20,071 nucleotides of DNA from a virus: positions 1 to 20,071 of the IMG/VR virus record IMGVR_UViG_3300044705_000027; one strand, 5' to 3'. This document shows, piece by piece, positions 5,458 to 19,651 of the stretch. How positions within the stretch are numbered: the first letter of the stretch is position 1; each line of letters opens with the position of its first letter. Both the position numbers and the translations under genes were made by a program. The notes beneath the pieces are model-generated. The model searched no databases. It saw only the letters and a list, made by a program, of their open reading frames with translations, and was not told the DNA's origin.

Positions 5458-5607
5458 CTATTTCTTTTTAGGTTTTTTCTTTTTAAGACCATTAATAGAA
5501 AGAGAGTAACGTTGATGATATCCTTCATTTAGATATTTCATTGCTTCCCCAAATTCTTTGTTAGGAATAGCATCTCTTCTTTTTTTAAGTGGTTTAGATT
5601 TTTTCAT
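5458..5607 (-). CDS. small lysine-rich protein, copy 2 (49 aa)
   Basis: This is a short gene found by reading the gap. The ATG at 5607 opens a frame starting MKKSKPLKKRRDAIPNKEFG and ending GLKKKKPKKK before TAG at 5458-5460. Roughly one third of the residues are Lys or Arg. The middle, KYLNEGYHQRYSLSINGL (24-41), aligns with the same region of the next gene upstream (KYRKEGYGEKQSIAMGLEYA), so the two look like diverged tandem paralogues. It begins two bases after that gene's stop and ends two bases before the gp7-like start, so it sits tightly within the operon. There is no clear Shine-Dalgarno; the leader is A-rich (AAATAACTATG). Such a basic protein next to ejection genes could bind packaged DNA, but this is inference. 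Confidence 0.72.
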   Translation of the reverse strand: MKKSKPLKKRRDAIPNKEFGEAMKYLNEGYHQRYSLSINGLKKKKPKKK

Positions 5608-5609
5608 AG

Positions 5610-5768
5610 TTATTTTTTCTTTTTCTTTTTTTTAGATTTATTAGATAATCCTGCATATTCTAAGCCCATAGCAATAGATTGTTTTTCTCCATAACCTTCT
5701 TTTCGATATTTGCTAATTTTCTTAGAAGCTATTTTTTCTTTTTTTCTTTTAGTAGCTGATATTTTCAT
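5610..5768 (-). CDS. small lysine-rich protein, copy 1 (52 aa)
   Basis: The ATG at 5768 is preceded by AAGGA at a usable distance (ATAAGGAAAATATG), which supports translation. The product begins MKISATKRKKEKIASKKISK, continues YRKEGYGEKQSIAMGLEYAG (21-40) and ends with a tail of seven lysines. The pattern 'basic N-terminus, EGY..KQSIAM.L.YAG, poly-Lys tail' recalls small lysine-rich phage proteins with a Q-A-I-A-x-A-L-S-E-A core; the resemblance is from memory and is not a database result. It lies between a fibre-like gene (stop at 6187-5786) and its paralogue at 5458-5607. A DNA-binding minor virion component is possible but unproven. Confidence 0.72.
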   Translation of the reverse strand: MKISATKRKKEKIASKKISKYRKEGYGEKQSIAMGLEYAGLSNKSKKKKKKK

Positions 5769-10165: not shown

Positions 10166-11128
10166 TTAATTTTGGTTCTTAAAATAGCTTTTTACATAAG
10201 CTTCTCTGGTTGATATTCCCCTTTCTACTGCCCAATCACATGTTTCTTTAGCTCCCTTTGGCAAATCATTATAAGTTTTATGTCGAGTGTTTGCGTTTCC
10301 CATTCCTCCCAAATCATTACCTTCTACCATTTGAATAGTGCTGCGTTTTTGAAATTTATTTGGGTAAATTGTTTTGATTTTAGCGCTTACCATTTCCAAT
10401 CTTTGGTTAAGCGGAAGATGGGCAGTTTGAGGATTCATCAATAAAGAATTATCATAAGCGGCAGCCATATTGCGCATTTCTATATCTTGGTCAAACCAAC
10501 TATTATTTTGTTTCCAACCATTAATAGTCATTTGATCTTGCGGAGATAATTGAGGAGCAGAAGGGACTGAAGGAGTTGGATTAGTTGGAACTTCTTTGTA
10601 AGTATTACTATACTTCTGCTTTTGTTCTAATAGCTGAGCGTAACGTTCAAAGTCCATTTCTTCTTTAGCTCGCTCAATCTCTCTATTAAGATAAGTTTGG
10701 GTGTTTTCCAAATCTCTTATTTCTCGAGTTTTATTTATCTCAAGAAGAGTGCGCATATCTTCACTCATCTTTTGTATTTGCTGCTCAAGAATTTGGTTTT
10801 TGTCTGCTAATTCTCTTAATCTTTCATTTCTGATTGGGGCTATTCGTTGAGAATTTTCTAAAAATTCTTTGTAATCAATAAATTGACGCTCTGAACCATC
10901 TTTATTCTTATTATTAAATAATTCTTGAGGTCTCCAGCCTTCATTCCAAGCTATTCTTGCGTCATCATCAGGTAAGTTATCAAATATTTCTCTTTCTTTA
11001 ATTTTCCTTTCTTCAGGAGGCAAAGAACGTAAATCAGGAGCAGAAGAAGCTTCTTGATTATTATTTGTTATCTCTGCAACCTGTGCTACAGATATATTTG
11101 GTTGTAAGTTATCATTATTGTCTGTCAT
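10166..11128 (-). CDS. capsid scaffolding protein (320 aa)
   Basis: The protein has the standard build of a phage scaffold. Residues 1-35 form a polar disordered N-terminus. Residues 36-95 hold an acidic segment with DDDARIAWNEGWRPQELFNN (54-73), a 'G-W-R-P-x-E-x-F' pattern seen in podoviral scaffolds. Residues 100-178 are a highly charged long helix or coiled coil (NERLRELADKNQILEQQIQK...), 180-197 are a proline-rich linker, and the C-terminus is basic and helical (WAVERGISTREAYVKSYFKN, 299-318) and could bind coat subunits as P22 scaffold does. It is encoded between portal and coat. AGAGGA lies upstream of the ATG at 11128, which overlaps the end of the GroES-like gene by 14 bases. Cleavage sites or a fused protease are not seen. 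Confidence 0.8.
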   Translation of the reverse strand: MTDNNDNLQPNISVAQVAEITNNNQEASSAPDLRSLPPEERKIKEREIFDNLPDDDARIAWNEGWRPQELFNNKNKDGSERQFIDYKEFLENSQRIAPIRNERLRELADKNQILEQQIQKMSEDMRTLLEINKTREIRDLENTQTYLNREIERAKEEMDFERYAQLLEQKQKYSNTYKEVPTNPTPSVPSAPQLSPQDQMTINGWKQNNSWFDQDIEMRNMAAAYDNSLLMNPQTAHLPLNQRLEMVSAKIKTIYPNKFQKRSTIQMVEGNDLGGMGNANTRHKTYNDLPKGAKETCDWAVERGISTREAYVKSYFKNQN

Positions 11129-11495
11129 TATTATCCTCTAAAATTGGTTGTTCATTTTTTATATCCCATTTTTGCCATCCTAATATATTAGATGAAGCAT
11201 CATCTATTAGTCGAAAGTAGTTATCCTTTTCGCTTAACATCATAACGCCAGTGTGAGCCTTAAAGAATACTAAAGATCCAACTGGTATTTCGTGTTCATT
11301 CCACGAAAAATTCTTACCTTTTTTAGCTAAAATCCCAACAGTAGAATAGAAAGCTACATTTTCTCTTTGTTCAGAAGTTACTATTATTCCACCAGAAGTA
11401 CGAGGAGGGGGAATATCAAATATCCATACTAAACAGCAATCAGGTTTAATATTAATTTCTTTTAAATTAAATTGACTCAGATTTTTTTTATTCAT
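11115..11495 (-). CDS. groES: GroES-like co-chaperonin (126 aa)
   Basis: The order of motifs matches the 10-kDa chaperonin fold. Residues 19-30 (DCCLVWIFDIPP) correspond to the first strand of GroES. RTSGGIIVT (32-40) corresponds to the mobile loop, whose GGIVL segment in GroES inserts its I-V-L tripeptide into GroEL, here GGIIV. VGILAKKGK (53-61) matches 'G-x-V-L-A-V-G-x-G', and PVGSLVFFKAHTGVMMLSEK (71-90) matches 'V-G-D-I-V-I-F-N-D-G-Y-G-V-K'. FRLIDDASSNILG (94-106) matches the final strand with the 'S-D-I-L-A' ending. It is longer than bacterial GroES (about 97 aa) through both termini. By analogy with T4 gp31 it would cap host GroEL to fold a phage protein, and its position directly before scaffold and coat suggests the coat. 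The gene overlaps its neighbours by 8 and 14 bases. Confidence 0.82.
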   Translation of the reverse strand: MNKKNLSQFNLKEINIKPDCCLVWIFDIPPPRTSGGIIVTSEQRENVAFYSTVGILAKKGKNFSWNEHEIPVGSLVFFKAHTGVMMLSEKDNYFRLIDDASSNILGWQKWDIKNEQPILEDNNDRQ

Positions 11496-16001: not shown

Positions 16002-17600
16002 TTAATACCCCGTTATTTCATTAGTCCGTCGTTCAAAAGAAGAATAACTCATTGTTTGCATTCTTTCATCAGCCATTGGAAATACAACGCCCATTTTTGA
16101 ATCCAATATTCTACTCAAAGCATCTAACATGTCATCATGCGTGCAAGCCGGATATTGCATATATTCCTCTTTGATAAAAGTTTGTACTAAATCTCTTGGC
16201 TTTCCTTCTACATCGATATACTCAATCCTCGGCGGCATATATATTCTACTATTACGATATAGCGGCTCTAATCTCATAATACGCTTGTCTTTTCCTCCTA
16301 ATTTCTCATCTAGCGCAACAATATTAAAGCGGTAATTATACTGCGCCATTTTTTCTTGTATATGTTGAATATCCGCTTGCATTCCATATTGCTCATATCC
16401 TACATGTAGCGGCTTGTATTTTCTAACAAGATTAAATAGCATTTGAGCTTTTTCGCTAAGCGATAGTCTATCCCTTATCATATCTACAATATAGTAATTC
16501 TCATCTTCACACACAGCAATTACTATCATTACAGTATAGTCGCTATTTTTTTCTTTACTACCTGCCGGGTCAACAACTATGTACAAATTACCAGCTCTCT
16601 CAGTTGCAAAATTATATTGTGCATATTTGAGCCATTCAAATTTAAATCCTCTGACACTATCAGCAGTGGGATTCATTAGATACTGACATGCAATATTATA
16701 ACGATTTAAATCCCTTATAATCTGTTGCCATTCTTCCGACTTCATATAGACCAACTTACCATCTAATTGTCCATTATCAGTGGCAGGATATTTTCTTGCT
16801 TTAACACTACCAGCATTGATTAATTGACAATGTAAATCATTCCAATGATAGAAAGTTCCAATATGACGCCTGATAGCTGGTAATGCCTTCATAAAGTAAT
16901 TTTGTGCACCATCCCAACTAGTTTTACTTTTAAGTATTTGTTCTGGTGTAGATACATTAGATTCTCTTACGCAGTCATCAAGTATCATTACATTACATCT
17001 TTTACCTACTGGCAAATCTAAGTTCAATCCGAAAGCTTCTAATGTAGGATAGCTACTATTCTTTTGTCTAAATGTGAGAGTAGATAGATTCCAACGGTCA
17101 GCATGCTTAGAAGGATTATCCCAAAGTACATCAGGGAACAAATCTTTTAAGAATTGATTAGACTCACATTCTCGCTTAATCTTATATAGATGCTCTTTGG
17201 CTAAATCTAAAGTAGCAGAAAATATCATAAATGAAGGCTCACTTCCTCCGGTGATTTCTTTCCATTCTGGCAATGGATTCTCACCATGAGAAGCTAGAAT
17301 ATCCTGTATTGTCTTACCGAAAGTAATGATAGTTGATTTACAACTGCCTCTTGCCCATAAATCTAGATATCCATTTGGCTCTTTCTCTACTTCTTTACAT
17401 CTAGCAAATAAGAAAGGATGCTCGATAAACTTCCTGTTCAACACAAAATAAAGTAAGAAGAATAAATCTGTACGAGCTAATTGCCTATAGAGCAATTTCT
17501 TGTCTTTATCATTTAGTTCTATAGTACGGTCTAGGAAATCTCGGTATTCCTGCGCATTAGTATAGTGCGCACAAATGCTTGGAGTAAGTTTGATTTGCAT
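16002..17600 (-). CDS. terL: terminase large subunit (532 aa)
   Basis: This is the packaging ATPase/nuclease. The ATPase half has a Walker A-type motif ARGSCKST (83-90, the R-G-x-x-K-S-T form common in phage terminases), a Walker B NVMILDDCVRES (203-214) with the acidic pair D208-D209, and a likely coupling motif FYHWND (250-255). The nuclease half has three acidic clusters of the RNase H-like fold: IVVDPAG (341-347, D344), VGYEQYG (400-406, E403) and HDDMLDAL (488-495, D489/D490/D493). Length is typical. The start at ATG 17600 has no Shine-Dalgarno; instead an extended -10 box lies 11 bases upstream, so the mRNA may be almost leaderless. No recognisable small subunit is adjacent. Confidence 0.93.
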   Translation of the reverse strand: MQIKLTPSICAHYTNAQEYRDFLDRTIELNDKDKKLLYRQLARTDLFFLLYFVLNRKFIEHPFLFARCKEVEKEPNGYLDLWARGSCKSTIITFGKTIQDILASHGENPLPEWKEITGGSEPSFMIFSATLDLAKEHLYKIKRECESNQFLKDLFPDVLWDNPSKHADRWNLSTLTFRQKNSSYPTLEAFGLNLDLPVGKRCNVMILDDCVRESNVSTPEQILKSKTSWDGAQNYFMKALPAIRRHIGTFYHWNDLHCQLINAGSVKARKYPATDNGQLDGKLVYMKSEEWQQIIRDLNRYNIACQYLMNPTADSVRGFKFEWLKYAQYNFATERAGNLYIVVDPAGSKEKNSDYTVMIVIAVCEDENYYIVDMIRDRLSLSEKAQMLFNLVRKYKPLHVGYEQYGMQADIQHIQEKMAQYNYRFNIVALDEKLGGKDKRIMRLEPLYRNSRIYMPPRIEYIDVEGKPRDLVQTFIKEEYMQYPACTHDDMLDALSRILDSKMGVVFPMADERMQTMSYSSFERRTNEITGY

Positions 17601-17765: not shown

Positions 17766-18029
17766 TTAAGAAGCAAAACACTTAACGCAACTTAACTTAC
17801 CACAATAACAAGTTTTATCATTTTTGCGTTGCTCTTGTGCTTTTTTATCTAAATCCATATAAATCTTAATTGCTTCCGCCATTACCCAAGCTCTAGATTC
17901 TAAGTTGACTTTTGCAAATTCAAGTATCTTTTTGGCTCTTGCGAAACAATCATCATCTAAATCAAATGTAATCACATTTTCTTCGTTACCTTTTTTCTCC
18001 ATTTTCTTTAATTTGAACCAACTTAACAT
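17766..18029 (-). CDS. small RHH-like protein with a C-terminal cysteine cluster (87 aa)
   Basis: Residues 19-62 (VITFDLDDDCFARAKKILEF, then AKVNLESRAWVMAEAIKIYM) have a strand followed by two helices, resembling a ribbon-helix-helix DNA-binding unit. The C-terminus has TCYCGKLSCVKC (73-84), with cysteines at 74, 76, 81 and 84 that could bind zinc. I do not know a named family with this combination. An alternative start at the second Met (residue 10) is possible; neither has a clear Shine-Dalgarno. It is the last gene before the operator-like region and terL, a place where a small terminase subunit would be expected, and DNA-binding character would fit that or a repressor. Both roles are inference. 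Confidence 0.62.
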   Translation of the reverse strand: MLSWFKLKKMEKKGNEENVITFDLDDDCFARAKKILEFAKVNLESRAWVMAEAIKIYMDLDKKAQEQRKNDKTCYCGKLSCVKCFAS

Positions 18030-18040
18030 TTAACAGCTGC

Positions 18041-18196
18041 TTATTTTTTATTAGTCCTTTTCTTTCGAATATATTTTATTATCAAATAAACACATTCATT
18101 ACAAATCTCAGCTTGAGGTCCTATTATTAACTCTCTTATTTCCTCCTCAGGTTTAGCACAAAAAGAACAACATAGTTTACCATCTATTACAGGCAT
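18041..18196 (-). CDS. stand-alone ClpX-type zinc-binding domain protein (51 aa)
   Basis: This short gene was found by reading the 18030-18229 gap. ATG 18196 gives MPVIDGKLCCSFCAKPEEEI, then RELIIGPQAEICNECVYLII, ending KYIRKKRTNKK before TAA at 18041-18043. The core CSFCAKPEEEIRELIIGP (10-27) plus EICNECV (30-36) closely matches the N-terminal zinc-binding domain of ClpX, 'C-S-F-C-G-K-S-x-x-E-V-R-K-L-I-A-G-P-x-x-Y-I-C-D-E-C-V'. The cysteines are C10, C13, C32 and C35 with the exact ClpX spacing (two, eighteen, two). The AAA+ module of ClpX is absent. In ClpX this domain dimerises and binds adaptors and some substrates. A free copy could act as an adaptor-binding decoy, inhibitor or partner of host ClpX; this is inference. 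It lacks a clear Shine-Dalgarno and ends 11 bases before the next gene. Confidence 0.82.
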   Translation of the reverse strand: MPVIDGKLCCSFCAKPEEEIRELIIGPQAEICNECVYLIIKYIRKKRTNKK

Positions 18197-18229
18197 AGTT
18201 ATATCAAGTTTAGTGAGTTATAGCTTAAA

Positions 18230-18442
18230 CTAAGTATAAGTCTTTAATTCTACTTTATTGTACTGCTTACAGTTCTTACATAAGAAAACATATGCAGCTT
18301 TAGAATATAATTCTTTAAATTTCTTTATTGAATATTTCTTACTTGTTATTTCAGAACAATAAACACAGCGAGAATATAGAAGCTTTTCTTGATTAGAATA
18401 GCATAATTGATATTCAAGAGCTTTATTGATTAATTCAAACAC
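18230..18442 (-). CDS. small zinc-ribbon-like protein (70 aa)
   Basis: The best start is GTG 18442, because GGAGAG sits six bases before it. It overlaps the upstream 57-aa gene's stop (GTGTTTGA). A TTG at 18460 in frame would add six residues but has no Shine-Dalgarno. The product begins with a helix (MFELINKALEYQLCYSNQEK), then has SRCVYCSEITSKKY (25-38) and YVFLCKNCKQYNKVEL (51-66). The two C-x-x-C knuckles (C26/C29 and C55/C58), 25 residues apart, are the pattern of a zinc ribbon. No target can be read from the sequence. It lies directly before the ClpX-type zinc protein. Confidence 0.62.
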   Translation of the reverse strand: MFELINKALEYQLCYSNQEKLLYSRCVYCSEITSKKYSIKKFKELYSKAAYVFLCKNCKQYNKVELKTYT

Positions 18443-18608
18443 AATATTCTCTCCAATCAATGAAATGATAATTACTACAATGCCAGCTTATTTTAATTGT
18501 TTCATTATTAGCCCAGAGCATCTGTTCTAATTCTTCCTGAAGAGCAGCATAATCAAATAATTGAAGATGAAAAGGGCAACCTTGATAAATTGGCTTAAAA
18601 TCTTTCAT
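18435..18608 (-). CDS. small protein with Cys/His residues (57 aa)
   Basis: The frame opens at ATG 18608, which shares its ATGA with the stop of the 92-aa gene (4-base overlap), and closes at TGA 18435-18437 inside the start of the 70-aa gene. This tight coupling on both sides supports it as a real gene although short. The product is MKDFKPIYQGCPFHLQLFDY, then AALQEELEQMLWANNETIKI, then SWHCSNYHFIDWREYCV. CPFH (11-14) and WHCSNYH (42-48) could bind metal, but the spacing is not a known motif. Otherwise it is a mix of one acidic helix and short strands. Function is unknown. Confidence 0.6.
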   Translation of the reverse strand: MKDFKPIYQGCPFHLQLFDYAALQEELEQMLWANNETIKISWHCSNYHFIDWREYCV

Positions 18609-18883
18609 TTTATCATCTCCTCCAACCCTTTCTCTAGCTCATTAATTGCCCATTCTATCTCTGGGTCGAAAGGAATAAAATTAATTACATTTTTAAAACT
18701 ACACCCCTTGCAATCAAATCCTAAACGCTGAGTTGATATTATTTTATTAAATTGCTCTTCTGAACAATCAGGGAGTAAATGACTATCGCCACAATTACCA
18801 CAATATAAACACAATTCTTGTGAAATGGGATTATACCTTATTCTAATATTTCCATCGTCATCACAAATAAGAGGGAATTTCAT
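18605..18883 (-). CDS. small zinc-ribbon-like protein (92 aa)
   Basis: The protein has seven cysteines. C25, C28 and C31 fall in ELCLYCGNCGD (23-33), and C58 and C61 fall in FDCKGCSF (57-64); two C-x-x-C knuckles about 30 residues apart suggest a zinc ribbon. The N-terminus (ICDDDGNIRIRYNPISQELC, 6-25) is strand-like, and the C-terminus is an acidic helix (EIEWAINELEKGLEEMIK, 75-92). The shape 'beta-strand, knuckle, strand, knuckle, acidic helix' is seen in small phage nucleic-acid- or protein-binding factors, but I cannot name one. It starts four bases after the stop of the 67-aa membrane gene and overlaps the next gene as ATGA. Confidence 0.65.
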   Translation of the reverse strand: MKFPLICDDDGNIRIRYNPISQELCLYCGNCGDSHLLPDCSEEQFNKIISTQRLGFDCKGCSFKNVINFIPFDPEIEWAINELEKGLEEMIK

Positions 18884-18887
18884 ATTT

Positions 18888-19091
18888 TTATCTCATTGCT
18901 TCTTCTACTAGCTCACAAGCTTCTTCACAAGAATAACCTTGTTGTTGCAATTCTTTTATAATCTCTTTCCTAAAAGCCGGTTTATCTTTGGAATAATAAT
19001 AGCATAGTCCTATTATTCGCAATAACAGACTTCTAATAAAAAGACCTATTATAATCGCTCCCCAAACTTTAAGAATAAACATTAATGTCAT
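18888..19091 (-). CDS. single-pass membrane protein (67 aa)
   Basis: Residues 2-30 (TLMFILKVWGAIIIGLFIRS then LLLRIIGLC) form a hydrophobic helix containing a few basic residues, so one membrane pass with an inside-facing basic tail is likely. The C-terminal half (DKPAFRKEIIKELQQQGYSC, 36-55, then EEACELVEEAMR) is a charged soluble helix pair with UBA-like or zinc-free bundle character. The ATG at 19091 overlaps the TGA of the Ntn-hydrolase gene by four bases (ATGA), so it is probably translationally coupled to it. Its start region repeats that of the hydrolase (AATAAACTATGACATTA on the coding strand). Function is unknown; a membrane anchor or partner for the hydrolase is possible. Confidence 0.65.
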   Translation of the reverse strand: MTLMFILKVWGAIIIGLFIRSLLLRIIGLCYYYSKDKPAFRKEIIKELQQQGYSCEEACELVEEAMR

Positions 19092-19651
19092 AGTTTATTC
19101 CATTCTCCATTATTAAAGCAAAATATATCTATTTGATTTTCTCCAACATTATAACTACAAGGTATCATGTAGTCTATTTTGTTTAAAATATAAAATACAT
19201 TTTCACAAAATTGTTTTATATTTAATTTATCAGGAATCTTTATGATAGATAATATTAACGCCTTGGCTGCATCATGTTGCAATCCTATTGCCCAATAATC
19301 ACCAACATTAAAACAACCTAATCTCCCATCAATTAAATGGATTCCATGCTTATCTATTATCAGACCATTAAAATCTGAATCCTGCATAATCTTGTCTGTA
19401 TACTCTGTTTTATATAAATCAATTAAGCTAGTAATAAAATAATGACCTTCTATATCATATCTAATATTATCTCCGATTAATTCTCCTATATACTGAGCCG
19501 ATATAGCTGTACCACTACTTAAGATTAAACGCTGGTTCTCTTCATCTAGAATATGTTTATCTGCTAAGATATAGCTATTATCTAGCCAAATTCTTCTATC
19601 AGTAGCAGCCCAGATTTCATCTTTATACTTAAATGCAAATGCTAATGTCAT
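19088..19651 (-). CDS. proteasome/HslV-like Ntn-hydrolase (187 aa)
   Basis: The N-terminus MTLAFAFKYKDEIWAATDRR has the pattern of proteasome beta subunits and HslV: a Met followed by Thr, a strand, a turn, then 'A-A-x-D'. Counting from the Thr as residue 1, the Asp of ATDRR is residue 17, as in HslV and proteasomes, and a Lys (ADKHIL) falls at position 31, near the catalytic Lys33. Then come LILSSGTAISAQYIGELIGD (residues 42-61), matching 'V-I-A-G-F-A-G-G-T-A-D-A', and NGLIIDKHGIHLIDG and GDYWAIGLQHDAAKALI (118-134), matching 'A-I-G-S-G-G-x-Y-A-x-A-A-A'. Length is near HslV (about 175 aa). The initiating Met would need removal to free the Thr. Substrates and whether it forms rings are unknown. 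It heads the operon with the membrane and zinc proteins. Confidence 0.75.
   Translation of the reverse strand: MTLAFAFKYKDEIWAATDRRIWLDNSYILADKHILDEENQRLILSSGTAISAQYIGELIGDNIRYDIEGHYFITSLIDLYKTEYTDKIMQDSDFNGLIIDKHGIHLIDGRLGCFNVGDYWAIGLQHDAAKALILSIIKIPDKLNIKQFCENVFYILNKIDYMIPCSYNVGENQIDIFCFNNGEWNKL

Follow-up and report, generated by a model that had tools for sequence, protein, structure and literature searches.

A 51-codon phage ORF encodes a free-standing zinc-binding domain of the ClpX type

A minus-strand ORF of 51 codons in a phage genome record encodes the C4 zinc-binding domain (ZBD) of ClpX as a protein of its own, unaccompanied by the ClpX motor. The window, that is, the whole stretch of DNA analyzed here, comprises 20,071 bases and corresponds to the full virus record. 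The ORF starts with an ATG at position 18196, ends with a stop at 18041 and encodes the protein MPVIDGKLCCSFCAKPEEEIRELIIGPQAEICNECVYLIIKYIRKKRTNKK, whereas the plus strand of the same interval is broken by stops; the preliminary description had left the strand unstated. The profile search called for in the preliminary description matched Pfam zf-C4_ClpX to residues 9–43 of the protein (E 6.8e-11; 42.3 bits versus a cut-off of 27), a match that, judged by sequence, is far beyond chance. As had been claimed, the four cysteines are placed exactly as in E. coli ClpX: the zinc ligands C10, C13, C32 and C35 follow the pattern C-x2-C-x18-C-x2-C, and the spacing in the E. coli protein is identical. 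The first matches of a PDB sequence search were the E. coli ClpX zinc domain structures 2ds5–2ds8 and 1ovx (E 3e-9), and three PHROG families, phrog_6797 (E 1.8e-9), phrog_12435 (E 1.4e-7) and phrog_5259, also matched the ORF. The identity of the domain and its zinc ligands are thereby established.

The lack of a motor is also established. ClpX equivalog models matched the ORF only over their first ~50 of 414–418 positions, far under the cut-off, and the AAA+ module (Walker motifs, ClpP-binding loop) was absent both from the ORF and from the whole record, in which a ClpX search returned the zinc ORF as its sole match, in agreement with the earlier statement that no AAA+ motor is encoded. An in-frame TAA lies 8 codons upstream of the ATG, so the start is fixed and no N-terminal extension is possible. 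The protein consists of the bare domain and a short basic tail, with only ~8 residues following the matched domain. No clear ribosome-binding site was seen before the ATG, as was the case for many genes in the record, including that for the terminase, and promoter and terminator scans did no better than shuffles.

Such a small frame could be a captured fragment of clpX with no selected function. Its reduction to a bare domain, a Pfam score that is the lowest of those scored and its sporadic presence would all fit this view, but none of the four cysteines or the core fold residues has been lost, the rest of clpX is untraceable in the record and small ORFs of the same strand are tightly packed around the ORF; we regard a functionless fragment as quite improbable. 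Nor was a truncated or decayed clpX kept as the main reading: no part of clpX other than the ZBD matched anywhere in the record, and the next downstream ORF is unrelated.

In the window, the recognizable genes are encoded by the minus strand (Table 1). The phage genes of the record encode the terminase (phrog_38), a portal protein (phrog_1216), capsid proteins (phrog_371 and phrog_4523) and a DNA-ejection protein (phrog_598); together with the Pfam match, these genes, the terminase included, uphold the earlier description of the ORF as a phage gene for an isolated ClpX zinc domain. The zinc ORF sits within a run of small same-strand ORFs just upstream of the terminase gene. Several members of this run (17766–18883, minus strand) carry CxxC pairs (those of 87, 76 and 92 aa), and no families were found for them.

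Table 1. Positions of the zinc ORF and of selected neighboring features in the window
Feature	Position	Strand	Evidence or remark
GroES-like co-chaperonin, divergent	11115–11495	−	phrog_3188; between portal and capsid
Terminase large subunit	16002..17600	−	phrog_38, E 2.4e-55; same orientation as zinc ORF; shows phage context
Next ORF downstream, 87 aa	17766..18029	−	C-terminal CYC..C..C motif; family-less; no ClpX remnant
Free-standing ClpX-type C4 zinc-binding domain ORF, 51 aa	18041..18196	−	Pfam, PHROG and PDB matches
Profile-matched zinc domain	18071..18172	−	PF06689 positions 2–36 of 39; cysteines 10, 13, 32, 35
Next ORF upstream, 76 aa	18230..18460	−	Two CxxC pairs; family-less

Elsewhere in the window, the position of the GroES-like gene is common to related phages, and two neighboring ORFs, 49 and 52 aa long and very rich in lysine, lie between tail-side genes (5458–5768, minus strand). 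The start of a 187-aa orphan ORF (19088–19651, minus strand), MTLAFAFKYKDEIWAATDRR, resembles by eye the N-terminus of a proteasome/HslV-type peptidase. This reading was discarded, as no Pfam, PDB, phage or PF00227 match was obtained; the single-sequence fold of this ORF was poor (pLDDT 38).

Related phages include Alcaligenes phage vB_Af_QDWS535, Roseobacter phages CRP-901/902 and Pelagibacter phage HTVC023P, with identities to such phages of 35–43% for the capsid protein and about 20–33% for the terminase and portal proteins. A search for kin with a capsid alignment yielded 80 loci at identities of ≤43%, and the terminase used as a single-sequence query matched none. A single-sequence search of viral contigs revealed no close relatives of the 51-aa ORF. 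Since the 50 records searched from relatives by capsid or terminase, many of them partial, gave no zf-C4_ClpX match, the zinc ORF looks like an accessory gene. A PADLOC search for a link to defense systems returned nothing.

Free-standing ClpX zinc domains are common in phages; they are kept in unrelated phages and are already represented in RefSeq and PHROGs, and hence are not a new type. Searches of viral contigs and phages recovered two sets of distinct zinc cores: 25 belong to proteins as long as ClpX, some of them from jumbo phages (for example, Bacillus phage G and Agrobacterium phage Atu_ph07), and 24 to short ORFs (≤160 aa). Some of the contigs classed as viral could in fact derive from prophages or from the host. 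The largest short family is that of the 110-aa protein of the E. coli P2-like phage P88 (AIZ95127.1), which 109 of 5,426 complete E. coli genomes encode and whose RefSeq name, among the matches listed, is ‘ClpX C4-type zinc finger protein’. Uncorrected pairwise counts over 15 distinct copies gave a rough dN/dS of 0.32 for the zinc part and 0.56 for the N-terminal part, indicating that the zinc domain of this P2-like family is under purifying selection. The window copy is the shortest free-standing domain seen and scored lowest with Pfam (42; the eight further short or fused proteins that were scored reached 57–69). Within this already annotated type of phage ORF, it is unusually small and divergent. 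No functional study of a phage free-standing ClpX ZBD was found in the open-access literature.

Several other arrangements were observed in the same survey. A 303-aa viral-contig protein (L092:2400–3308) has its zinc domain near the C-terminus and an N-terminal part that is ParB-like by eye and had no Pfam match. Two consecutive short ORFs (L170:3938–4530) each contain a ClpX-type zinc domain; in one of the two, the spacing is altered. In actinomycete proteins of ~120–140 aa (L183, L184–L187), the ClpX zinc domain lies at the N-terminus, and the C-terminal segment resembles a helix-turn-helix. A contig labeled Acinetobacter phage (L176; CAKLQH020000005.1) shows the chromosomal order tig-clpP-clpX and may be mislabeled host DNA.

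An extra N-terminal segment of roughly 40–90 aa is found in most of the other free-standing ZBDs of phages and is absent from the window copy. Such a segment would suit an adaptor-like tether, which would pair with the zinc domains of host ClpX and deliver a phage or host protein to ClpXP, perhaps the product of a neighboring small ORF, and the crowding of the zinc gene by small ORFs agrees with this idea. However, the window copy has no cargo segment, its start being fixed by the upstream stop and only ~8 residues following the domain, and for this protein we find a tether unlikely.

AlphaFold2 was run on the 51-aa protein with a 22-row alignment of the fetched loci. The resulting model is a confident treble clef (mean pLDDT 90.3), and in Foldseek and VIA-align comparisons the E. 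coli ClpX ZBD entries (2ds5–2ds8, 1ovx) ranked first or close to first. The model superposed on 2ds8_B (the ZBD-XB complex) with Z 7.1 and an rmsd of 1.2 Å over 41 residues, whereas unrelated zinc fingers gave a Z of about 3. The Foldseek E-values were weak (2e-3 to 5e-2), as expected for such a short chain. The predicted fold is that of the ClpX ZBD, and the protein most likely adopts it.

The docking face of the domain was compared with that of the 25 ClpX cores and the 24 other free-standing cores, using residue numbers from an alignment of the window protein to 2ds8 (E. coli ClpX) and adaptor and substrate pocket positions taken from PMC7804408. The window protein retains the cysteines and S15, F16, K19, I28, G30, P31, I35 and E38. 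It differs by Glu at Y34, Ile at A29, Tyr at I46 and Glu at K26. Position 34 is aromatic or His in 25 of 25 ClpX cores; the substitutions at Y34, A29 and I46 set the protein apart from all 25, and Glu34, Ile29, Tyr46 and Glu26 were found at these four positions in none of the 24 other short versions. No other docking face in the comparison is as diverged. Phe16 and Ile46 belong to the hydrophobic side pocket at which trigger factor docks on ClpX; this pocket overlaps with the site for lambda O, and the hydrophobic region concerned is also where SspB and RssB bind (PMC7804408). In the window protein, F16 of this pocket is kept and I46 is replaced by Tyr. Given the changes at I46, Y34 and A29, binding of the ordinary ClpX adaptors cannot be assumed.

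A docking face so diverged would also fit a ClpX treble-clef fold that has been repurposed for a partner outside the Clp system, such as a sigma factor, an RNA polymerase component or a phage protein, the protein then being a small dimeric anti-sigma factor or regulator. By analogy, such a partner is possible: the B. subtilis anti-sigma factor CsfB forms a treble-clef dimer whose structure most resembles the ClpX N-terminal domain (NTD) (PMC5890618), some cyanobacterial sigma factors carry zf-C4_ClpX as an accessory domain (PMC11119718), and the C-terminal segment of the ~120-aa actinomycete ZBD proteins looks by eye like a helix-turn-helix. By contrast, a direct link to transcription is absent, the sequence still best fits the ClpX family, and the authors of the CsfB study doubt that CsfB and ClpX are related by evolution (PMC5890618). 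We consider repurposing a possibility to be taken seriously, albeit a doubtful one. Because the docking face is changed, action on the Clp system is rated just somewhat above it.

We tentatively favor the view that this bare ClpX-type ZBD folds as a zinc treble clef, dimerizes and acts in trans on the host Clp machinery. The treble clef would dimerize through its C-terminal helix. The phage domain could then serve as a decoy, occupying adaptors or substrates that would otherwise dock on ClpX, or alternatively pair with the zinc domains of host ClpX; either way, particular ClpXP substrates might be spared or redirected during infection. That the protein is expressed, dimerizes, has a target in the ClpX pathway and benefits the phage is inferred. 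The isolated E. coli ZBD at 5–20 µM inhibits RssB-mediated degradation of σS by ClpXP in vitro (PMC7226468), and the ClpX ZBD dimerizes in isolation (PMC9035409), which makes a decoy or mixed-dimer role plausible by analogy. Phage inhibitors of host proteases are known, namely T4 PinA and T7 gp4.5, which act on Lon, and lambda RexB, which acts on ClpP (reviewed in PMC10286901). The preliminary description had proposed that the domain could titrate adaptors, mix with host ClpX or redirect ClpXP; the in vitro precedents are in line with this proposal, but the changed docking face means that its adaptor-binding part cannot be taken for granted.

In favor of action on Clp we count the family match, the ligand spacing, the fold, F16, the precedents for ZBD inhibition and dimerization, the known phage protease inhibitors, the retention of ZBDs and the dN/dS of the P2-like family; against it stand the diverged docking residues, the failure to find a relative of this exact ORF in viral contigs or in the 50 records of capsid or terminase kin, and the lack of a clear ribosome-binding site. 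A stronger version, in which the docking face has been re-tooled and the bare domain is a dedicated decoy or subunit poison of host ClpXP, seems rather unlikely. If it were true, the protein would represent a minimal case of a widespread, uncharacterized class of phage Clp modulators. More generally, should free-standing ZBDs prove to target ClpXP, phages would possess a broad class of protease modulators made from a piece of the host machine, for which the 51-aa copy offers a minimal test case.

Compared with known systems, the window protein is closest to the ClpX N-terminal ZBD (PF06689; 2ds5–2ds8, 1ovx), with which it shares the C4 spacing, the SFC and L-I-x-G-P segments, the predicted fold and F16; unlike ClpX, it has no AAA+ module, carries I46Y, Y34E, A29I and K26E on the docking side and ends in a basic C-terminal tail, RKKRTNKK. 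The P88 protein (AIZ95127.1) is likewise a phage-encoded ClpX zinc domain without a motor, but it is 110 aa long, has an N-terminal segment of about 60 residues and has a zinc domain near that of E. coli ClpX. The actinomycete ZBD proteins of ~120 aa (Labedaea, Paractinoplanes) are also free-standing and have the CCSFCAKP segment in common with the window protein, whereas they are cellular and possess the additional C-terminal segment. CsfB (Gin) is similar in being a small, stand-alone, dimeric treble clef with a fold near that of the ClpX NTD (PMC5890618), but it is only about 20% identical to ClpX and has a different interface pattern. By contrast, the window protein matches the ClpX family: Pfam, with which weak matches can be missed, gave no Gin match, returning only zf-C4_ClpX and a sub-threshold DUF5908.
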